The notes below the pieces were generated by a model, which saw only the letters and a program-made list of their open reading frames with translations, did not search any database and was not told the origin of the DNA. The translations under genes and the position numbers were made by a program. DNA of 35,638 nucleotides from Acidimicrobiia bacterium. Lineage in GTDB: Bacteria; Actinomycetota; Acidimicrobiia; Acidimicrobiales; Bin134. Below, in pieces: positions 981 to 12,164 of the stretch; within the stretch, counting starts at the first letter, position 1, and every line of letters starts with the position of its first letter. The stretch lies in NCBI GenBank assembly GCA_022827405.1, contig JAJDTA010000100.1, positions 1-35,638 of the forward strand. The letters run 5' to 3'.

Positions 981-2051
981 GTGATACATCCGACGATTGA
1001 TGAGGTACGGGCTGCTCCCAAGGTTTTGTTGCACGACCATTTGGACGGGGGGTTGCGTCCGCAGACTGTGGTGGAGCTGGCCGGGGAGACGGGTTACGAC
1101 CAATTGCCTACTACCGATGCCGATGATTTGGCCCGGTGGATGGTGCGGGGGGCCAGTCGGTTGGACCTCACTTTGTATTTGGAGACGTTCGCCCACACCG
1201 TGGGGGTCATGCAGACCCGCGACGCCCTGGAGCGGGTGGCGGCCGAGTGCGCTGAGGACTTGGACGACGACGGTGTGGTCTACGCCGAGGTGCGGTTCGC
1301 CCCCGAGCTGCACACCGAAGCCGGACTGAGCCTGGACGAGGTGGTCGAGGCGGTGGTGGCCGGCTTCGAGGCGGGCAGCGCCAACCGGAACATCCGCATC
1401 GGGACTTTGGTCACCGCCATGCGCACCGCGGCCCGGTCGCTTGAGATCGCGCAACTGGCCGTGCGTCACCGCGACAAGGGCGTCGTCGGATTCGACATTG
1501 CCGGGGCCGAGGCCGGCAACCCGCCTACCCGCCACCTGGATGCCTTTCACCTGATCCAGCGGGAGAACTTCCACTTCACCATCCATGCCGGGGAGGCCTA
1601 CGGGCCGCCGTCCATCTGGGAGGCCGTGCAGTACTGCGGCACCGAGCGCCTGGGCCACGGGGTCCGCATCGTGGACGACATCGAATTCGGCGCCGATGGC
1701 ACCCCCAAGCTGGGCCGGCTGGCCGCCTTCGTGCGTGACCGGCGCATCCCGCTCGAGTTGTGCCCCACGTCCAACGTCCACACCGGGGCGGCGCCGTCCA
1801 TCGCCGAGCACCCCATCAAAGTGCTGAGCGACCTGCGGTTCCGGGTGACGGTCAACACCGACAACCGCCTCATGAGCGCCACCTCCATGACCCAGGAGGT
1901 GATGCAGTTGGTGGACGAGTTCGGCTTCGGCTGGGCCGACATCCAGTGGCTCACCATCAACGCCATGAAGAGCGCCTTCATCCCCTTCGATGAGCGCCTG
2001 GAGATCATCAACAAGGTGGTCAAGCCGGCCTACGGCTCCCTGGCGCTGTGA
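981..2051 (+). CDS. add: Adenosine deaminase
   Basis: Cytosolic zinc hydrolase that converts (deoxy)adenosine to (deoxy)inosine and ammonia in purine salvage. The metal and catalytic set is complete: HxH at residues 18-20 (HDHLDGG), HAGEAYG with His202 and Glu205, RLGHGVRI with His226, and NTDNR with Asp294. The length of about 356 aa is usual for the bacterial family. The frame also contains TTG 951 and TTG 963. GTG 981 was chosen because the conserved fold begins shortly after it and a -10-like hexamer lies 7 nt upstream, as expected for a leaderless mRNA. The stop overlaps the next gene's GTG (GTGA at 2048-2051), so the two are probably co-translated. An adenosine deaminase-like enzyme with another nucleoside substrate cannot be excluded. 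The start is less certain than the function. Confidence 0.93.
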
Positions 2052-2746
2052 CCGCAGTTCCTATCGACACCGTCGGCCTCGACGCTGACGACACCCTGTG
2101 GCACAACGAGACGATCTTCGCCGACTACGAGCAGCGAATGGCCGACCTCGTGGCCCGCTATTTGCCCGATGTGGACTTCCACGAGCGGCTCATCGAACTA
2201 GAGCGGCACAACGTGGCCATCTTCGGCTACGGCATCAAGGGCTTCGTGCTGTCGATGATCGAGACTGCCATCGAGGCCACCGAAGGACAGATCACCGCCC
2301 AGGAGATTCACACCATCGTGGGCTGGGCCAAGGAGATGCACGCCCACCCGGTGGAGCTGCTCGACGGGGTGGCCGACACCATCGAGGAATTGGAGCACCG
2401 CTATCGCCTGGTGCTCATCACCAAGGGCGACCTGTGGAACCAGGAAACCAAGATCGCCGCCTCGGGGCTGGCCGACCACTTCGACGCAGTGGAGATCGTG
2501 GCCGAAAAAGACGAGTCCACCTACACCCGGCTGTTCGATCGCCACGAGATCGACATCGGCCGATTCGTGATGGTGGGCAACTCGGTGCGCTCCGACATCG
2601 AGCCCGTGGTCGCCCTCGGCGGCCGGGGCGTCCACATCCCCTACCACCTCACCTGGGACTTGGAGCACGCCACCATCTCCCCTCACGACAGCTGGGTAGA
2701 GCTAGGAGACATCCGCCAACTCCCCTCCTGGCTGGACGGCCAGTAG
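2048..2746 (+). CDS. HAD-family hydrolase (phosphatase-like)
   Basis: This 232-aa protein has the four HAD motifs. Motif I is LDADDT, with nucleophile Asp12 and acid/base Asp14. Motif II is the LITKGD strand, motif III a Lys in AEKDE, and motif [13 protein letters not shown] helical cap sits between motifs I and II. It resembles the COG1011/phosphoglycolate-phosphatase-like group, which hydrolyses small phosphomonoesters. The substrate cannot be read from sequence. Coupling to add through a 4-nt GTGA overlap makes a nucleotide or sugar phosphate plausible, but that is inference. The last coding stretch ([11 protein letters not shown]) reappears in degenerate form at 3144-3184. Confidence 0.85.
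2693..2733. repeat. Imperfect direct repeat, copy 1 (in HAD 3' end)
   Basis: These 41 bp at the 3' end of the HAD gene match 3144-3184 at 32 of 41 positions, without gaps. Both copies read WVEL(G/S)DI(R/H)QLP in translation. The pair brackets the hypothetical gene at 2765-3163. Confidence 0.6.
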
Positions 2747-2764
2747 GGAACCCTTCTGCCTCGG

Positions 2765-3163
2765 TCACAACAATTCCGGGCATTCCATCAGATAGACGGG
2801 GATACCCCACAGTTCTTGCAGCCGCAAAGAGTCGTCGGGGCTGAACGTCAGCCACTCTTCGGAATCCACAGCCCTCACGCCGACTTTCACCTGGCCAACA
2901 TCGACCAACCGGGCAGCCCACAGTTGCGTGGCTGAATCGCCGTGCCAGAAGATCGCCAGAAAACCGTATCCGTCTTCTACCAATTCCCCCTCATAGCCAG
3001 AGCCAAGCGTGGTCGTGCCAACGCGATGTGGCCACGACGTCGACTCCTCCCGAGCAACGGGGTGGCCGGGACGAGGCGGAAGTTCACATTCCGCAGGATC
3101 TGGCATATGCCCATTGTGCGGGCAGACAGTGACAGTTTGTCGTTGGGTGGAGCTGTCCGACAT
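2765..3163 (-). CDS. Hypothetical protein
   Basis: This 132-aa reading frame is not one I recognise. The start is supported by GAAGGGA 9 nt upstream of ATG 3163. The N-terminal third is low in structure (Ser/Thr, then Pro, Cys and His). The C-terminal two thirds look like a small folded domain with alternating hydrophobics and several Trp/Tyr, for example GYGFLAIFWHGD. It converges with the HAD gene 18 bp away and is divergent from the methyltransferase. Its first codons lie inside the degenerate copy of the HAD 3' end, so it may have arrived with, or been rearranged by, the event that made that repeat. Base composition looks intermediate between the GC-rich flank and the AT-richer island. 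It could be a spurious frame. Confidence 0.5.
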   Translation of the reverse strand: MSDSSTQRQTVTVCPHNGHMPDPAECELPPRPGHPVAREESTSWPHRVGTTTLGSGYEGELVEDGYGFLAIFWHGDSATQLWAARLVDVGQVKVGVRAVDSEEWLTFSPDDSLRLQELWGIPVYLMECPELL

Positions 3164-3184
3164 CCACCAACTTCCCTTCGGGCT
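3144..3184. repeat. Imperfect direct repeat, copy 2 (HAD 3'-end remnant)
   Basis: Degenerate second copy of 2693-2733 (32 of 41 identical, no gaps), just upstream of the methyltransferase gene. It may be a relic of a duplicated HAD gene or of an integration event that duplicated the gene end. The rest of 3185-3300 shows only the methyltransferase leader. Confidence 0.55.
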
Positions 3185-3300
3185 ATCCCCTCTTCAGCCA
3201 TCAGCCTCAATGGGACCCAGCATCACCCAATGTGTCACTAGGTCATGCCATCATGTCCTCGACAAATTACATCGGTGAAACCGGGGAGGAGACACAGCCC

Positions 3301-4509
3301 ATGCCAAACAGCCCTATGACGTGGCACCCCTCGGACATAAAGCCACACACTCCTCTCACCTCTCTCGATCGTGATCACATCAAGACACTTGATCATTCCT
3401 ATCGCCTCGACCACGTTGCCAAAGCCGTTGGAATGTCCCCACTGTTCGTGCGGAAGGCCACTAGCCAGAAAGACACACTCAACACGCAGAGCGTCCTACA
3501 TCTCTTGGATCTCGATGCCTTCCAAGAAACGATCATTCCTCGTTCACAGGTCATTGCCTATCTCACTTCGCTACAGCAGAATGCGATGGATAGCAATTAC
3601 ACTCCGAATCCATCGACATACGACCTACGACTTGGAAATGCACTTGATCTGATTCAGACTATCCCTGAATCAACTGTCCAATGTGTCGTAACGTCAACTC
3701 CATATTGGGGTACTCGCACCTACGAAGACGCACAAGCCACACCGTGGGCCGACGGCGAAATATGCCCGTATGGCCTAGAACAAACGCCTGAAGGGTTCGT
3801 ACGCCATACCACAGAAGTAATCGATTCACTCGCCAGAGTTCTTACAGACGACGGATCTATCTGGTGGAACATAATGGATAGTTTCAACACACGCACTCAA
3901 ATCCGAAACTCAGCTGTTGAAGCACTGAGAGCAATGGAAGGCAAGGATTCGAGAAAGTGGCACGACCACAGTATGCGCCGTTATTCGGCAGGCCATTCAT
4001 ACCTCAAGGACGGAGAGCAGTGCCTGATTCCTGCTCTCATCGCAGAGCGAGCCAGTAGAGTCGGATTGTATGTCAAGTCCGTCATCACATGGGCAAAACG
4101 AAGCACGCTACCTGAACCTCACAACTCGCGTGTAAGTCGAAATTTGGAATATGTTCTCCATATTTCAAAAACGCGAACGCCCAAATTCATTAAGAATGCC
4201 TATCTCATTGCTGATCCCCAATTCGGCGGTCGAGACGAGTTCTGCGAAACCGAAAAACTATCTGATGTCTGGGTCCTAAATACCTCCACAGGAGGAAACG
4301 GCCATGGTGCCCAATTTCCTACCGCCCTGCCCGGACGATGCATAGCCCTTTCCACTGAGCCAGGCGACCTTGTACTTGACCCCTTCGTAGGATCCGGTAA
4401 CTCTGGAGTGGCTGCTCTACATCATGGCTGCAGATTCTTGGGCTTTGACATTTCTCAGACGTATCTTTCAATCGCAAAAGATAGACTAGAAAATGCTAGC
4501 TACCGCTGA
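3301..4509 (+). CDS. DNA amino-methyltransferase (N4-cytosine or N6-adenine), beta class
   Basis: Transfers a methyl group from SAM to an exocyclic amino group in DNA. The catalytic motif IV is TSTPYWG at residues 131-137, a variant of the usual TSPPYWG. The SAM-binding motif I, DPFVGSG (about 360-366), comes after it, followed by FLGFDIS. Motif IV before motif I is the beta-class order, and an S/T-x-P-Y motif points more to N4-cytosine than to N6-adenine. About 95 N-terminal residues before the catalytic domain include an HTH-like stretch and may read the target. ATG 3301 was chosen over GTG 3232 because GGGGAGGAG lies 9 nt upstream; the product is 402 aa. The gene converges on the nuclease gene with a 14-bp tail overlap (4496-4509). 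It is AT-richer than the flanks, suggesting acquired DNA. The recognition site is unknown. Confidence 0.88.
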   Translation: MPNSPMTWHPSDIKPHTPLTSLDRDHIKTLDHSYRLDHVAKAVGMSPLFVRKATSQKDTLNTQSVLHLLDLDAFQETIIPRSQVIAYLTSLQQNAMDSNYTPNPSTYDLRLGNALDLIQTIPESTVQCVVTSTPYWGTRTYEDAQATPWADGEICPYGLEQTPEGFVRHTTEVIDSLARVLTDDGSIWWNIMDSFNTRTQIRNSAVEALRAMEGKDSRKWHDHSMRRYSAGHSYLKDGEQCLIPALIAERASRVGLYVKSVITWAKRSTLPEPHNSRVSRNLEYVLHISKTRTPKFIKNAYLIADPQFGGRDEFCETEKLSDVWVLNTSTGGNGHGAQFPTALPGRCIALSTEPGDLVLDPFVGSGNSGVAALHHGCRFLGFDISQTYLSIAKDRLENASYR

Positions 4510-5761
4510 ACTCCCCAATTCCGTCCTCATCACCCGACAAGAACCTTTCCAACACTACGGCAAGTCCACTAACCGGTGTAGAGCCAAGCACAACAGACAT
4601 ATCAGTTTCTAGACCTTTCGCCACACTAACTGTCGGAACAATTTCTTCGGGTCCTACAATGAATGCCCATACCTCCTTCGCCAAACCATTCCTTGCATCC
4701 AACGCATAACTTGAAGCTTGATGAAATCCATTGCGTCCAACATACTCTGGCCTGTCGCTCCATTTACATTCCAGAATCAACGCACGCTCTCCTGGCGATA
4801 TTAGCAAGACATCGTACCCAATCGACTTTTCCAGATAACTAATGCCTCGGACTGCAGATCTATAGGCAGATTGCTTTGCCCCATATCGTGACCGCATCTG
4901 TCGGGCTTCATACCACAGATCCCAGCTTCCCTTATCCGAGTGTATAGCGCGAATTTGCGGGCGATCCCGCGACCCATGCAAGATACTTTCCGACACGATG
5001 GAAAATCGCTGTTGTTTCAATGCATTGATCAAATAACCGAATGTCGTGAGATGAAATAGTGCGGACCTCATCTCGACATCTGGTTCCAACAGTTCAAAGG
5101 CCAGCATTTCTGGGGAATTTTTAGAAGCGATAACTTGTGCCGTGGTCTCCGCTACACTTCTCCAGGGTTCACCAGATGATCTCAAAGCGTGCAACTCAAA
5201 CCTATCGGGTTCATCAGGAACACTCGGCCATGTGTATTCCATAGCCACATCCTTGAGAGCATCTACTTGCGGGCGTATTCGTGCGGTGAGTATGGGGCTA
5301 ATTTTGGCCACGGAGCTTAAAATCGAATTTAAATGATCCGCCAACCATGACAGTGCCGAGATTGCCACATTAGAAACGTTTTTGCTTTTCGATTGAACAA
5401 GATATTTTTGAGGCGGCCAACCCTGCCGACGTAGGGTCTCAGACCACAAAATCTTACCATGCAATCTCGAATCAACTTGTTTCTCAAAAGCAGTACTAAC
5501 CGGCAAGTATTTCTCCCACTGCGAAAGTGAAGACGGTAACTTGAGGATAACGTCTTCTAATCCACCCAAGAGAATACGATGCGACCTTCGGCGGATGTCT
5601 TCAGAAGACCAACGAATACGTTCGTCATCTTCATATGTCATTGCTAAAAGTTCAATGAGATTTCCATCCCCCGCCCAAATTTTTGAAACTTCTCTTATTC
5701 CTTCACGCGGCAATACAAGGTGAATGTCCTCATCCACCGCGTCCATACTGTCGAGCCCCAT
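4496..5761 (-). CDS. McrC-like PD-(D/E)xK nuclease subunit
   Basis: Probable DNA-cleaving partner of the AAA+ ATPase encoded just upstream. Near the C-terminus are Asp317 in GYDVLL and Glu331-x-Lys333 in LECKW, forming a PD-(D/E)xK catalytic set. Gln348 to Tyr352 (QASSY) gives the QxxxY motif seen in many such nucleases. The first 300 residues are mixed helical and not recognised; in McrC-type proteins this part binds the ATPase or DNA. ATG 5761 shares one base with the TAA of the upstream gene (TAATG), indicating tight translational coupling, so the 13-codon upstream extension is rejected. The 421-aa length fits McrC/LlaJI-R2-like subunits. Composition is AT-rich like its neighbours. Family assignment rests on motif and context; no overall alignment was possible. 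Confidence 0.8.
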   Translation of the reverse strand: MGLDSMDAVDEDIHLVLPREGIREVSKIWAGDGNLIELLAMTYEDDERIRWSSEDIRRRSHRILLGGLEDVILKLPSSLSQWEKYLPVSTAFEKQVDSRLHGKILWSETLRRQGWPPQKYLVQSKSKNVSNVAISALSWLADHLNSILSSVAKISPILTARIRPQVDALKDVAMEYTWPSVPDEPDRFELHALRSSGEPWRSVAETTAQVIASKNSPEMLAFELLEPDVEMRSALFHLTTFGYLINALKQQRFSIVSESILHGSRDRPQIRAIHSDKGSWDLWYEARQMRSRYGAKQSAYRSAVRGISYLEKSIGYDVLLISPGERALILECKWSDRPEYVGRNGFHQASSYALDARNGLAKEVWAFIVGPEEIVPTVSVAKGLETDMSVVLGSTPVSGLAVVLERFLSGDEDGIGEFSGS

Positions 5762-7332
5762 TAGACAAGTACATCTATTTGCTCGATAACCCACTGCCAT
5801 TGGTCTGCATCTATGATCGACTCTTGACCAATGATTCTGTCACCAAGAGAGTTCAGAACATCGTCCCCGTACAGTGCAAGATATTTCCCTACATTTATCA
5901 CATATGATTCAACAACTGTTTCTGCTTGTTGTTTTTCTTCAGGGACCAGACTTTGCTGATCTTGAATTCCATAATATCTGCCCATTTTCAAAAACACTGC
6001 TGGCCCTAGTACCGTTTCCTGATGTTCGTAATGAGCGGAATACAATCTATATATCGCATCGTGAACTTCTTCGGCCAGGTTCGGGTGTTGTCTTTTGAGT
6101 AAGTTGTCAAATTGTCCCGGCGTGATCGCCGGTATTGGTACTACTACAAATCTACGTGACAATGCTTGGCCAAATCTGAACACTCGAAGGGCATCTTGAG
6201 GGTTATAGGTCCCGAGCATTCTCCAAGATCTCCCAACAAGATACTTCACGGGCTTTTCTGTTTGTTCTGAAATCTCAATTCTATTGGTGAGTAGTTCTGT
6301 CCACCCCAATTCAATCCTCTCACCATCATGGGGCTTTGTTCTTCCGACTTCGATAGTCTGCTCCGACAGCCATGTGATTAGAGGGCCCATAATCTTGTCC
6401 ATATCAGCCCTGTTGGTTTCATCAAGCACCAACCACCTGTTGTCGGACACTGCATTCAAAATCAACCCTGGTGCCCATTCCAGAACCCCCTGCTCATTTG
6501 GTGCATATCCCCCAACAAGTTCAAAGGCAGTCCAACTTTCTTCTGGAGTATGCCAAATGGGATCAGGTCTAAAGTGTTCTGGAAACTCATAACTTTGAGG
6601 GTTATCGGTTATATCCTTGCAAAGCCGTTCGATAAGTTTACTCTTGCCAGTACCCGGTGGGCCTACTAGAACTACAAATTTATAGTTAGCGATTGCCGCC
6701 TTTAGCATGCTCCAGACTCTTTCGTCATAGGTAAAGTAATCCTCCTTATCGATATCACTATCTGCCGACTTCTCTCTGGTGTCTCCAATTGAAGAGATCG
6801 AGACCCTAGTTGGCCCCAGTTTTCTTGGCAGGTCCGAGAGGCTCCATTCCTCAGCGGACAATAGAGGCGCCTCTAATGGGCTAGAAGTCGATATCTGGCC
6901 TAACTCTTCAACACTCATCCTTAGACTTTGAAGAAGTTCGGTTTCCGCTTGTGTCCAATTCGCGCTTTCATCAAATTCATAATTTCGAAGTATCAGGCAT
7001 GCAAGTGATTGCCATTTAGGAAGTCTCATTTGACTTTGCTCTAATGCTTCACTCACTAATTTCGCTGCATCACTCCTAAGGCCGCTACGAATATCTTCCC
7101 CTCTTCCATCCCCAATGTCGTTGAATATTGTTTTTGCTAATGTCGGTCCTCTGGTGGTGTTATTCCACACTGTCTTCCTGCCAGGTTGTTCAGAAGTCGT
7201 CCACTCATACCTGAATGGATATAGCCTTCCTGTGGGATTCTCTGGCTCTAATACAAATAACGATGAAACTGCTTCATCCACGTCCTTTACGGTTAAATTC
7301 GTTTTCTCATTTGCTTGACACCATTTGGCCAC
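5761..7332 (-). CDS. McrB-like AAA+ ATPase/GTPase (restriction motor)
   Basis: AAA+ motor of the dynein-related/McrB group, expected to translocate on DNA and activate the nuclease. Walker A GPPGTGKS is at residues 224-231, Walker B WLVLDETNRAD at 300-310, sensor GTYNPQD at 374-380 and LSRRF at 391-395. McrB has NTAD where this protein has NPQD, so the Asn and Asp linked to GTP use are kept. Whether it uses GTP or ATP is open. The N-terminal 200 residues are not recognised and could bind DNA. GTG 7332 follows an in-frame TAA by one codon and has no clear Shine-Dalgarno. The same frame continues upstream for 30 plausible codons to ATG 7428, so the annotated start may be a re-start after a nonsense mutation. 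The gene may therefore be slightly truncated. Confidence 0.85.
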   Translation of the reverse strand: MAKWCQANEKTNLTVKDVDEAVSSLFVLEPENPTGRLYPFRYEWTTSEQPGRKTVWNNTTRGPTLAKTIFNDIGDGRGEDIRSGLRSDAAKLVSEALEQSQMRLPKWQSLACLILRNYEFDESANWTQAETELLQSLRMSVEELGQISTSSPLEAPLLSAEEWSLSDLPRKLGPTRVSISSIGDTREKSADSDIDKEDYFTYDERVWSMLKAAIANYKFVVLVGPPGTGKSKLIERLCKDITDNPQSYEFPEHFRPDPIWHTPEESWTAFELVGGYAPNEQGVLEWAPGLILNAVSDNRWLVLDETNRADMDKIMGPLITWLSEQTIEVGRTKPHDGERIELGWTELLTNRIEISEQTEKPVKYLVGRSWRMLGTYNPQDALRVFRFGQALSRRFVVVPIPAITPGQFDNLLKRQHPNLAEEVHDAIYRLYSAHYEHQETVLGPAVFLKMGRYYGIQDQQSLVPEEKQQAETVVESYVINVGKYLALYGDDVLNSLGDRIIGQESIIDADQWQWVIEQIDVLV

Positions 7333-7335
7333 GAG

Positions 7336-7428
7336 TTAACTTTCGTACATCGACACCAATTGTCTGCTGTACTTGAGACTGTGCAGGTCGTTTAAGGCTG
7401 CCTGCATGGCTTCTGAACTGATCTTCAT
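7336..7428 (-). pseudogene. Possible 5' exon-like fragment of the McrB-like gene, cut off by TAA
   Basis: A 30-codon frame from ATG 7428 to TAA 7338-7336 lies in the same frame as the ATPase gene, with one codon (CTC) between the stop and GTG 7332. Its peptide is amphipathic and helical (for example MQAALNDLHSL), and its last residues flow naturally into the ATPase N-terminus. A weak AGGAAG lies upstream. It could be the original N-terminus broken by one nonsense change, a short leader peptide coupled to the ATPase, or a sequence error. Confidence 0.45.
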
Positions 7429-7537
7429 ATTGGGTCCAATCTTCCTAGACTGCTGATGCCTTCTCTTCTTTCCTAGCTTGGAGGTGTGTTGCCTTCAATC
7501 TTGCCGACGGGTAGTCATCTTTGTCTCTCTACACTTC

Positions 7538-8188
7538 TTACGGATTCCTAGCTTTTGTTAGGCGGTCGGTGCTGGGGTCGAATGTGGGGAGTTGGTGCTG
7601 GACGACGCCTTGATGGGCGGCCAGCTCGTCGTAGACCATGGCCTCCACCTCTTCCCAGGAGGTGGCCCGGGGCGGTTCCAAATCCCGGTTGTAGGGCTGG
7701 TCGAACACGATCACGGTTCGGCCCTCAGCCCGCAAGGCCTCGACGTTGTGGGGGGCGTCTTCGATATAGACGTGGGCGTCCACCGCCGATTTCCCGCCCA
7801 CGAAGCACAGGTCGCGGTAGGGAATCTTGGCCTTGTCGAGCCACTCGGCGGTGTCGCCGGCCGCGATGGCGTGGTCCCAGTTGGTGTAGAGCCGGTGGGT
7901 GATGATGCGGATCCACACCCCGGCCTCCGACAACCGCCACAGCGCCTTGGAGGCTCCCGGCATGGCCGGCATGTCAGCCAGCATCCGATGCTCCGCCACC
8001 GCCCGACGGTGGTAGGCCTCAAAGTCGCCTTCTTCGAATCCCCATTCCTGAAATCCCCAGCTGCATTCCAGGGTCAGCGATTCCTCGGCCACGCCCTTCT
8101 CCTGAGCCACGATCCTCCGGAAAGCCACAGTGTGCTGGGCGCACACCCCATCGAGGTCGACGCCGAAGACAAAGGGTCCCGCGCTCAT
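7538..8188 (-). CDS. NT5C-like HAD phosphatase (5'(3')-deoxyribonucleotidase family)
   Basis: HAD-fold phosphatase related to 5'-nucleotidase, deoxy, type C, which removes phosphate from (deoxy)nucleoside monophosphates. Motif I is FGVDLDGVC with Asp11 and Asp13, motif II is the IITHR strand, and motif IV is YIEDAPHN. Length is 216 aa. ATG 8188 overlaps the upstream ALDH stop as ATGA, so the six-codon upstream extension is not used. It is the last gene of the deoC operon. Nucleotide dephosphorylation feeding nucleoside and deoxyribose breakdown fits this place, but the substrate is inferred. The 7429-7537 gap downstream holds no gene or terminator that I can support. Confidence 0.8.
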   Translation of the reverse strand: MSAGPFVFGVDLDGVCAQHTVAFRRIVAQEKGVAEESLTLECSWGFQEWGFEEGDFEAYHRRAVAEHRMLADMPAMPGASKALWRLSEAGVWIRIITHRLYTNWDHAIAAGDTAEWLDKAKIPYRDLCFVGGKSAVDAHVYIEDAPHNVEALRAEGRTVIVFDQPYNRDLEPPRATSWEEVEAMVYDELAAHQGVVQHQLPTFDPSTDRLTKARNP

Positions 8189-9060
8189 CTTCCCTTGGGG
8201 TGCCACACGGTCTTGGTTTCGCAGAAGGCGTCGATGAGATAGGGACTCTGGGCGCCTTCATCGGCCCATTGCCGTTCAGCGGCCGATGCGCTCACCACCC
8301 GGGTGATGGTGGCTGCTGCCTGGCGGGTGGCGTCAGCCTCCAGATCGGCATCGCATCCGGTGAGGTCCAGCGCATCCACGGCCCCATGGCCAGCCAGCGG
8401 GGGGACCATTTCGCCGCGATGCCCGGTGAGGATGTTGACCACGCCAGAGGGCACATCGCTCAGCGCCAGGGTCTCGGCCAAGGTGATGGCCACCAGCGGA
8501 CTGCGCTCCGAGGCCAGCACCACCGCGGTGTTGCCCGACACAATCACCGGAGCCAACCGGGACACCAGCGGAAGCAGGGGCGAATCGTCGGGGGCCACGA
8601 TCCCCACCACGCCGGTGGGCTCGGGCACGCTGAGGTTGAAATAGGGGCCGGCCACCGGATTGGCCCCGCCCAGCACGGTGGCGAACTTGTCGGCCCATCC
8701 TGCGTACCACACCCAGCGGTCGATGGCCGCGATTGTCTCTTGGGCGGCGGCCGTCTCGCCACACCCATCGCCCGCTCGAGCCACCTCAGCGCTGAACTCG
8801 TCGCGGCGGGACTCCATGACCTCGGCCACCCGATACAGGATCTGGCTCCGGTTGTAGGCCGTGCGCCCGGCCCAGCCTCCTTGAGCCGACCGGGCCGCCG
8901 CCACTGCATCCCGAACGTCTTTGCGCGACCCCTGCACCGCGTTGGCCAGAAGCTCACCTTCGGCCCCGGAAATCGGGTACGACCGTCCCGACTCGGAGCG
9001 CTCGAATGCGCCGCCGATGAACTGCTTATAGGTCTTGTTGACCACCAGTCGGCTGCTCAT
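8185..9060 (-). CDS. Truncated ALDH-like protein (ALDH16 C-terminal-type pseudo-domain)
   Basis: This 291-aa protein looks like the first part of an aldehyde dehydrogenase. It has the N-terminal segment, the nucleotide-binding-like region (VVGIVAPDDSP, SGNTAVVLASE) and an ALDH-like tail (ETKTVWHP), but lacks the domain holding the catalytic Cys and general-base Glu. It is therefore unlikely to oxidise aldehydes alone. The upstream gene is a complete ALDH, overlapping it by ATGA at 9057-9060. In ALDH16 proteins, a catalytic ALDH domain is followed in one chain by a shorter pseudo-ALDH domain of this kind. The sizes here (495 + 291) add up to about the roughly 800 residues of ALDH16. I infer a split ALDH16 acting as a complex. 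The frame continues upstream to 9417, but ATG 9060 is the natural start. Confidence 0.8.
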   Translation of the reverse strand: MSSRLVVNKTYKQFIGGAFERSESGRSYPISGAEGELLANAVQGSRKDVRDAVAAARSAQGGWAGRTAYNRSQILYRVAEVMESRRDEFSAEVARAGDGCGETAAAQETIAAIDRWVWYAGWADKFATVLGGANPVAGPYFNLSVPEPTGVVGIVAPDDSPLLPLVSRLAPVIVSGNTAVVLASERSPLVAITLAETLALSDVPSGVVNILTGHRGEMVPPLAGHGAVDALDLTGCDADLEADATRQAAATITRVVSASAAERQWADEGAQSPYLIDAFCETKTVWHPKGR

Positions 9061-11475: not shown

Positions 11476-11540
11476 TCGCCCAAGGATAGGGGTGGCAGGC
11501 GACAGTGAGGCATTCGGCAAAAGCCCGCTACGGTGGGGCC
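11476..11540. promoter_or_regulatory. Divergent deoC/upp promoter region with two leaderless -10 boxes
   Basis: This 65-bp gap separates the two divergent starts. On the minus strand TATCCT ends 7 nt before deoC GTG 11475. On the plus strand TACGGT (11529-11534) ends 6 nt before upp GTG 11541. Neither gene has a convincing Shine-Dalgarno for these starts. This fits two leaderless transcripts. No clear -35 boxes or operator were seen. Confidence 0.4.
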
Positions 11541-12164
11541 GTGGACGTATCAGTCGTCGATCATCCCCTCGTTCAGGCCCGCTTGACCGCATTGCGCCGA
11601 GCCGACACTCCATCACCGGAGTTCCGACGGGCATTGGGAGAACTGAGCGGTCTTTTGATCTACGAAGCCTTGAGAGATCTTCCCGCCACCGCCATCAGCG
11701 TCGACACGCCGCTGGCCCGCACCTCCGGGGTGCTAATCGACAATCCCCCGCTGCTCGTGCCGGTATTGCGGGCCGGTCTGGGAATGCTGGACGCCGCCCG
11801 CGAGCTGTTGCCGGAGGCCGCCGTCGGCTTTCTGGGCGTGCGCCGCAACGAGGATACGTTCCAGCCCGAGCCCTATCTCAACACCGTGCCCGACAATCTC
11901 GACGGCCAGTCGGTGCTGGTTTTGGAGCCGATGCTGGCCACCGGAGGGTCGCTGGCCTACGTGTGCGGGCTGATGGCCGCCGCCGGGGCCGGGCAGATCA
12001 CCGCGGTGTGCGTGCTGGCTGCCCCCGAAGGGGTGAAGGCACTGGAGGCCGCCGCCCCCGGCGTTCAGCTGTTCACCGCGTCAGTCGACGAGGGGCTCAA
12101 CGATCGGGCCTACATCGTGCCCGGCTTGGGAGACGCGGGCGACCGCCAGTTCGGAGAACTCTGA
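11541..12164 (+). CDS. upp: Uracil phosphoribosyltransferase
   Basis: Converts uracil and PRPP to UMP in pyrimidine salvage. The PRPP loop reads [10 protein letters not shown] (about residues 128-137), with Glu where Asp is usual. The C-terminal uracil-binding region reads [18 protein letters not shown] and GFLGVRRNE are also typical of the family. With GTG 11541 the length is 207 aa, matching the usual 208-209; the 12-codon upstream extension (11505) is rejected because of the family length and the -10 hexamer placed 6 nt before GTG 11541. It is divergent from deoC and converges with the small helical protein 21 bp away. Confidence 0.93.

Follow-up and report, generated by a model that had tools for sequence, protein, structure and literature searches.

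A probable mobile McrBC-type restriction-modification island with a beta-class amino-methyltransferase and a candidate target-reading domain in Acidimicrobiia

We analysed a 35,638-nucleotide stretch of an Acidimicrobiia bacterium genome (assembly GCA_022827405.1, contig JAJDTA010000100.1; hereafter the window), which makes up all of contig C103 in a genome of 3.77 Mb and 237 contigs. It holds an island with genes for a beta-class amino-methyltransferase (MTase), a McrC-like nuclease and a McrB-like AAA+ protein. The best explanation, to which we give a probability of roughly 0.82, is that the island is a mobile three-gene restriction-modification (R-M) system of McrBC type within one larger insertion, working like LlaJI and PcaI. 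Support comes from the precedent of PcaI, the linkage of the genes, the co-occurrence of an N-terminal AAA domain with the MTase, the likeness of the engine to McrBC and the pattern of gene decay. Additionally, we found that the same N-terminal domain sits with the MTase on at least three dissimilar engines.

The MTase family occurs in 12 loci, comprising the window and eleven others whose MTases share 47-96.5% identity with that of the window. These lie in one genome of the same genus (G801), three of the same order (G725, G746 and G075 (= L002, L007)), two Acidimicrobiia metagenome-assembled genomes (L006, L008), a genome of another class of the same phylum (L034, from G348), a Rhodococcus fascians plasmid (L003) and three IMG/VR contigs (L009, L010, L011). 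Duplicates were counted once (L001, L002, L024-L027, L029, L031-L033, L035, L055, L057-L059, L063-L067), and the MTases of L012-L023, at 24-36% identity, were left out of the family count. An AAA gene and a nuclease-position partner adjoin the MTase in 11 of the 12 loci, window included; MTase and nuclease genes are convergent in ten loci, and in Rhodococcus the MTase diverges from the AAA gene. Co-location in other genomes was one of the tests on which the original prediction for this stretch had staked itself, and the homologues lie together rather than apart. This linkage suggests that the MTase is cognate to the AAA-nuclease pair.

In the twelfth locus (L010, 659-1927, on a phage contig) the MTase stands alone, following a terminase-like open reading frame (ORF; phrog_9, 2.7e-9) and preceding portal and head-protease genes, as expected of anti-restriction; it carries a canonical SPPY motif and is a possible anti-restriction gene. 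The L011 trio adjoins an integrase (phrog_1, 1.6e-16), and that of L009 lies near a serine recombinase (phrog_95, 1.8e-114). At least three engines accompany the family: that of the Acidimicrobiia and L009 (with L011), that of Rhodococcus and that of L034, L011 being placed with the first because of its motor score (99.9%) and a PD-(D/E)XK motif only. Beside the family MTase, the Rhodococcus locus (L003, 5487-9798) holds an NxD-type AAA gene, a DUF3644 gene and a 455-residue ORF in which PD..DxK-like residues can be recognised by eye.

The MTase is rare, being detected in 3 of 396 genomes sampled from the phylum, in 5 of 397 of the order (the window counts in both) and in 1 of 31 of the class of G348, which is G348 itself. 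The nuclease was present in 6 of the 397 order genomes, window included; five have the MTase adjacent, and in the sixth (G856) the contig ends inside the nuclease gene. A scan of genome contigs with two short patterns found three loci, and is an undercount. Plasmid searches by tblastn returned only their own record for the Rhodococcus AAA protein and 455-residue ORF, and no match for the L034 McrC or the window nuclease; viral scans with a single nuclease sequence, with the A13 nuclease alignment and with the A7 alignment of the AAA N-terminus gave nothing that was confirmed.

The regions of the AAA proteins upstream of the P-loop were compared by hhalign, using profiles built without the tested protein. 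In this leave-one-out comparison the N-termini of L003, L011, L009 and L034 score 99.4%, 95.8%, 95.5% and 89.2%, and those of nine control McrB-like proteins score at most 1.0%; shuffled sequences, tried 40 times against an earlier profile of six rows, reach at most 2.1%. The motors show the reverse pattern, at 99.2-100% for the nine controls, 99.9-100% for L009 and L011, 96.1% for L034 and 54.0% for L003. The AAA protein of G856 (L069) was included here although it is absent from the 12 MTase loci, its contig ending within the nuclease gene, and that of G725 was excluded because the domain is deleted. The domain has no convincing Pfam relative and no DUF3578 match, and a PDB profile search gave two matches at E of about 0.7, taken as chance.

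The controls were L004, L028, L030 and L070-L075, six of them drawn from the 20 plasmid AAA matches listed of 52 records; L005 was left out. A family MTase is missing from all nine control loci, apart from one trace, a 56-residue match (E 1e-4) in L004. Other MTases do occur among them: two in L004, C5-type enzymes in L028 and L030 (translations read), and a C5-type enzyme in L072 with three genes between. The five remaining control loci have no MTase named within the stretch fetched, the genes of L073 all being called hypothetical. Two of the controls show other arrangements of interest. On a Paenarthrobacter plasmid (L004, 977-7177), a McrB-like AAA gene and a short ORF bearing a PD-(D/E)XK-like motif are divergent from the two MTases, another McrBC-type R-M arrangement; on an IMG/VR contig (L028, 947-5663), a McrB-like AAA gene and a nuclease with a weak DUF2357 match stand tail-to-tail with the apparent C5-cytosine MTase. 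Because the N-terminal domain co-occurs with the family MTase, we suggest that it reads the site which the MTase hides, as R1 reads the site in LlaJI (PMC1459862).

Comparison with G801, whose island lies between the same two genes, shows that the engine can be exchanged at a single site. Flanking proteins are 92-95% identical between the two genomes, the 132-residue ORF of the island 94% and the MTase 96.5%; the AAA protein and nuclease are 51.5% and 47.6% identical. In 150-base blocks, DNA identity is 87-99% over 1051-4500, 39-70% over 4501-7500, 70% over 7501-7650, a block that spans the right break, and 85-96% over 7651-8250; the left break coincides with the 3' end of the MTase gene. Within the AAA protein, identity is 55% over residues 1-130 and 63% over residues 201-345. 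As the whole AAA-nuclease block differs under a near-constant MTase, we read this as recombinational replacement.

The island occupies a gap between HAD and NT5C genes (window 2746-7560; L040, L045-L054). Among 15 congeners searched, 13 had the NT5C gene (15 of 26 matched, a count that takes in the window and a genome from another family). In seven of the 13 (G655, G657, G663, G666, G664, G661, G252), 25-26 nucleotides separate the coding ends of HAD and NT5C, and other DNA fills the site in five (0.85 kb in G658, 0.83 kb in G665, 1.4 kb in G660, 3.1 kb in G242 and at least 2 kb to the contig end in G654); in G662 the contig ends at the site. The gap, empty or variously filled, is thus a recurrent insertion site. 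The fillings in G658 and G654 contain ORFs whose translations resemble, by eye, an antitoxin and a PIN-domain toxin. The 132-residue ORF accompanies the MTase in two congeners (the window and L060, 8400-8801), with a weak match elsewhere in G657.

The MTase belongs to PF01555 (N6_N4_Mtase) by Pfam scan, and its motif IV precedes its motif I (DPFVGSG), which is the beta-class order. Its start was put at ATG 3301 on two grounds: DNA identity to G801 is higher after 3301 than in 3151-3300, and GGAGGAG lies upstream of this ATG. Eleven of the 12 family members have STPY (as TSTPYW) in place of the canonical (D/N/S)PP(Y/F/W) tetrapeptide. The phage orphan L010 carries TSPPY, as do all 11 examined of the distant beta-class MTases of the viral set (L012-L022). 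STPY is a conserved feature of engine-bearing systems rather than decay.

An S at the first place of the motif IV tetrapeptide suggests N4-cytosine methylation. The best solved relatives of the MTase by phmmer are annotated as cytosine-N4 enzymes (8s9m, E 3.6e-16, over residues 323-398 only), followed by a putative methylase and then the adenine enzyme CcrM; the nearest NCBIfam model is CcrM, far below its cut-off. Our guess from sequence is an N4-methylcytosine mark, with N6-methyladenine possible. A helix-turn-helix identity for the MTase N-terminus was considered and set aside, as HTH_31 matches only weakly in two relatives (E 0.018 and 0.062) and not in the window MTase; homology between the MTase and AAA N-termini was likewise rejected, on a profile comparison of 0.1%.

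The nuclease, whose start was set at ATG 5761 because homologues place it there, matches nothing in PADLOC and reaches the cut-off of no Pfam or NCBIfam model. Residues D317, E331, K333 and Y352 are invariant in seven aligned rows, window included. An AlphaFold model from the seven-row alignment has a predicted local distance difference test score (pLDDT) of 77, and its top four solved structures by Foldseek are McrC chains (6hz4_M, E 3.5e-8; 6ut7_G; 6ut6_G; 6ut5_G). In L034 the nuclease-position partner is itself PF10117 McrC (E 2.5e-20), and a profile of six Acidimicrobiia nucleases matches L009 at 99.0%. The model points to a separate McrC-like nuclease of PD-(D/E)XK type, and its gene is coupled to that of the AAA protein.

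The AAA protein matches PF07728 (AAA_5; E 1.2e-13) and carries a McrB-type NxxD loop (TYNPQD). The NxxD/NxD division splits McrB motors (PMC11090510), and N410 and D413 of the consensus loop matter in Thermococcus gammatolerans McrB (PMC7680126). NxxD occurs in ten of the 11 family motors, and NxD in that of Rhodococcus. Two of 11 loci have a damaged AAA gene: the window, through its stop, and G725, through a net deletion of about 0.68 kb (relative to G746) that takes out the N-terminal domain. The nine remaining AAA frames are open (in L009 up to the contig end), as are all 12 MTase frames, and the nuclease of G725 matches over its full length with no stop. Restriction would thus be lost before modification, as R-M predicts, although the numbers are small. 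The G725 deletion site (L061, about 11506-11554) adjoins an oxidoreductase gene.

The features are collected in Table 1. The MTase and nuclease genes overlap tail-to-tail by 14 bp (4496-4509), and the AAA stop and nuclease start overlap as TAATG. The three genes have 45-50% G+C, versus 65-68% in flanking genes. Searches found no terminal repeats joining the two island ends, only short, chance-like repeats, and a sigma-70-like promoter search found 0 sites versus a mean of 5.7 in shuffles, a result that is not informative. At this level the original prediction is confirmed. Its 14-bp overlap is exact, its AT-richer composition is borne out, and the horizontal transfer it proposed is supported by the empty site in congeners. 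Its beta-class MTase with a variant catalytic motif proved to be a PF01555 enzyme with a conserved STPY, its McrB-like ATPase is consistent with the Pfam family, the loop and the presence of McrB among sequence and fold matches, and its nuclease, whose N-terminus it had called poorly recognisable and for which it had proposed structure prediction, has McrC as best solved structure, with low similarity scores.

Table 1. Features of the island and its genes in the window.
Feature	Position	Strand	Basis
Inserted island, about 4.8 kb	2747..7559	.	between two convergent core genes (HAD, NT5C); their coding ends 25-26 nt apart in 7 congeners
132-aa ORF, left half of island	2765..3163	-	no Pfam family; 94% identical homologue, same place in G801
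Beta-class amino-methyltransferase (MTase), 402 aa	3301..4509	+	PF01555, E 7.7e-37
MTase N-terminal extension, ~130 aa, at most weakly helix-turn-helix-like	3301..3690	+	in all nine aligned rows
MTase motif IV TSTPYW, variant of SPPY	3691..3708	+	same in 11/12 family members
McrC-like PD-(D/E)XK nuclease, 421 aa	4496..5761	-	AlphaFold model, pLDDT 77; four best Foldseek matches are McrC chains
Nuclease active-site stretch D317...E331-C-K333	4763..4813	-	invariant alignment columns; motif in six close relatives including window
McrB-like AAA+ protein, 523 aa from GTG 7332	5761..7332	-	PF07728; McrB among PDB matches; NxxD loop
AAA N-terminal domain, proposed target-site reader	6688..7332	-	common to MTase-linked AAA proteins, not found in nine control motors; no Pfam/PDB match
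P-loop GPPGTGK of AAA protein	6643..6663	-	
McrB signature NxxD (NPQD) of AAA protein	6193..6204	-	
AAA gene 5' end by homology, broken by in-frame TAA (~7336-7338)	7333..7428	-	intact copies in relatives
Block swapped in G801, only 39-70% identical per 150-base block	4490..7550	.	sliding DNA identity, breaks at ~4490 and ~7550

Among the closest known systems is PcaI, in which one MTase, a McrB-like protein (PcaIA) with an unrelated N-terminal domain and a DUF2357/PD-(D/E)xK nuclease (PcaIB) restrict unmethylated CCNGG plasmids and phage, and which is thought to be mobile (PMC8989522). Its MTase is a Dcm-like C5-cytosine enzyme (CCNGG), whereas that of the window is a beta-class amino-MTase, a contrast drawn from the published description (PMC8989522). 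In LlaJI, R1 is a McrB-like specificity subunit that reads the site, R2 carries PD..D/ExK, and un-methylated DNA is restricted in vivo (PMC1459862). LlaJI has two C5-cytosine MTases in one operon with R1 and R2, an asymmetric site and four genes in one direction (PMC1459862), and its reader is a B3 domain (PMC12707154, PMC7680126); the window has one N6_N4_Mtase in opposed orientation and so is not LlaJI proper. The LlaI operon combines one llaIM gene with three restriction genes, and the system has a McrB-like subunit, LlaIB (PMC1459862, PMC7680126). It differs in that its McrB-like subunit is short (337 residues) and without an N-terminal reader. M.LlaI is an adenine (amino) MTase. If its mark is indeed adenine, an amino-MTase combined with a McrB-like subunit is not new in itself.

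Escherichia coli McrBC resembles the window system in its nuclease and AAA+ engine and shares the NxxD loop, but it has no MTase partner, bears a DUF3578 methylcytosine reader and cuts modified DNA (PMC11090510). The window has an MTase partner and no DUF3578 match, which sets it apart from type IV McrBC. It also differs from CoCoNuTs, with their NxD GTPases, coiled coils and RNA-binding domains on the nuclease, in its NxxD loop and in a nuclease with no such Pfam domain (coiled coils were not computed). McrB GTPases beside predicted DNA MTases have been noted in NxxD, NxD and NxxxD branches and deferred to a later publication (PMC11090510). The original prediction had likened the locus to LlaJI, and the McrB/McrC-like pair with a cognate-looking MTase supports that logic. 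It had further proposed that a single MTase, with a variant catalytic motif and a poorly recognisable nuclease N-terminus, might define a separate subtype; a single MTase is ruled out as the mark of a new subtype by PcaI (PMC8989522), which has one, and LlaI, with one llaIM gene. What is new is the conserved STPY motif and the family's own AAA N-terminal domain; the R-M architecture itself is known. Among the papers listed by the literature searches none described this lineage, subscription papers and REBASE being outside their scope.

The system would work as follows. The MTase would mark a sequence in host DNA, a site that is probably palindromic because one MTase suffices, and the AAA protein would read the unmarked site in foreign DNA through its N-terminal domain. 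The AAA protein would form a McrB-like ring, hydrolyse nucleotide and move along DNA, and the ring would recruit and activate the McrC-like nuclease, which would then cut. Given the stop in the window AAA gene, restriction in this organism may be lost or may need a restart at GTG 7332, leaving the MTase solitary in effect.

Several observations weigh against an R-M system with this reader and engine. A profile of the seven Acidimicrobiia N-termini gives L003 99.6%, L009 72.6%, L011 27.3% and L034 0.8%; as L034 is reached only with L009 and L011 in the profile, its link depends on intermediate sequences. The AlphaFold model has pLDDT below 50 over most of the N-terminal domain, so no fold is claimed, and DNA binding by this domain is suggested by position and co-occurrence only. 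In G801 the MTase is 96% identical but the N-terminus of the AAA protein 55%, which leaves sameness of target not assured. Template-modelling (TM) scores of the nuclease model to McrC are low (0.22-0.33), the nuclease profile gives L011 2.3%, L034 2.3% and the Rhodococcus 455-residue ORF 0.7%, and the profile comparison did not establish the latter as a nuclease. For the motor, the best PDB sequence match by phmmer is midasin (9.9e-11), with McrB next (6hz4_A, 5.6e-4). The AlphaFold AAA model (L006 homologue, six rows) is confident only in the motor, and Foldseek ranks NorQ first for it (1.9e-10; the top matches are NorQ/MoxR) and McrB 13th (6hz4_A, 3.1e-9). Lastly, the AAA frame of the window contains an in-frame TAA at codon 31, about 7336-7338. 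The original prediction put the right end of the system at 7428; homologues do begin there, about 32 codons upstream of GTG 7332, but the frame from that point crosses the stop, and it is GTG 7332 that opens the longest uninterrupted frame. The window gene may be damaged, restarted at GTG 7332 or mis-assembled.

This stop raises the prospect that the window copy is a decayed system in which the AAA protein is dead, restriction is lost and the MTase works alone, either setting an epigenetic mark or shielding DNA against restriction by other systems, the family still being R-M. We put that at a little short of even odds, and it is compatible with the best explanation for the family. The loss of the whole AAA N-terminal domain in G725, where the MTase frame and nuclease stay open, speaks for it as well. 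However, a GTG lies just after the stop, the remaining 523 codons of the AAA frame and the 421-codon nuclease frame are open, and restart after a stop occurs in bacteria; the stop also comes from one assembly only, with sequence error possible. That a type IV McrBC, cutting modified DNA, simply stands beside an unrelated MTase is very unlikely. E. coli McrBC is modification-dependent without an MTase partner, and a McrC-like fold and McrB-like loop are present in the window, but the linkage in 11 of 12 loci, the three dissimilar engines and the swapped engine in a congener argue otherwise. The AAA N-terminal domain also goes with the MTase and not with the motor, and a nuclease aimed at the mark of its neighbour MTase would cut the host.

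The ranking of NorQ and midasin above McrB, with the Pfam name AAA_5, would suit an AAA+ remodelling module of MoxR/NorQ type that works with a PD-(D/E)XK partner in some process other than that of McrBC. We consider this less likely again, in view of the McrB-type NxxD in ten of 11 family motors (the remaining one having NxD), the nuclease model that matches McrC first, the PF10117 McrC used by L034, and the finding of no vWA protein among the seven window proteins scanned against Pfam. Methylation loss is a known trigger in R-M addiction, and such loss could release the nuclease and AAA protein to kill the cell or to attack RNA, in the manner proposed for CoCoNuTs. The Rhodococcus locus, with its DUF3644 gene beside the 455-residue ORF and its NxD motor, speaks for such a module; the window AAA protein has NxxD rather than NxD, and no cold-shock or HEPN domain was found in the three window proteins by Pfam scan (coiled coils not computed). 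We hold this to be the least probable alternative.

Returning to the McrBC-type R-M system, we propose, as a tentative extension that we are slightly inclined to doubt, that the MTase and the AAA N-terminal domain may be a transferable specificity pair. In such a pair, a reader of the unmodified site that is unknown to Pfam would be combined with the enzyme hiding that site, and McrBC-type engines of at least three kinds, from either side of the NxxD/NxD division, would have been joined to the two. Engines would be exchangeable under a constant MTase at one chromosomal site, and phages would be able to carry the MTase alone as a shield.

McrBC-type R-M systems gain a beta-class amino-MTase lineage with its own reader-like domain; LlaJI and PcaI use C5-cytosine marks. 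Additionally, the occurrence of the same reader-like domain and MTase on three engines is a natural experiment on how the reading of unmodified DNA arises in McrB motors, through which the location of specificity in McrB-like motors becomes testable by domain exchange.

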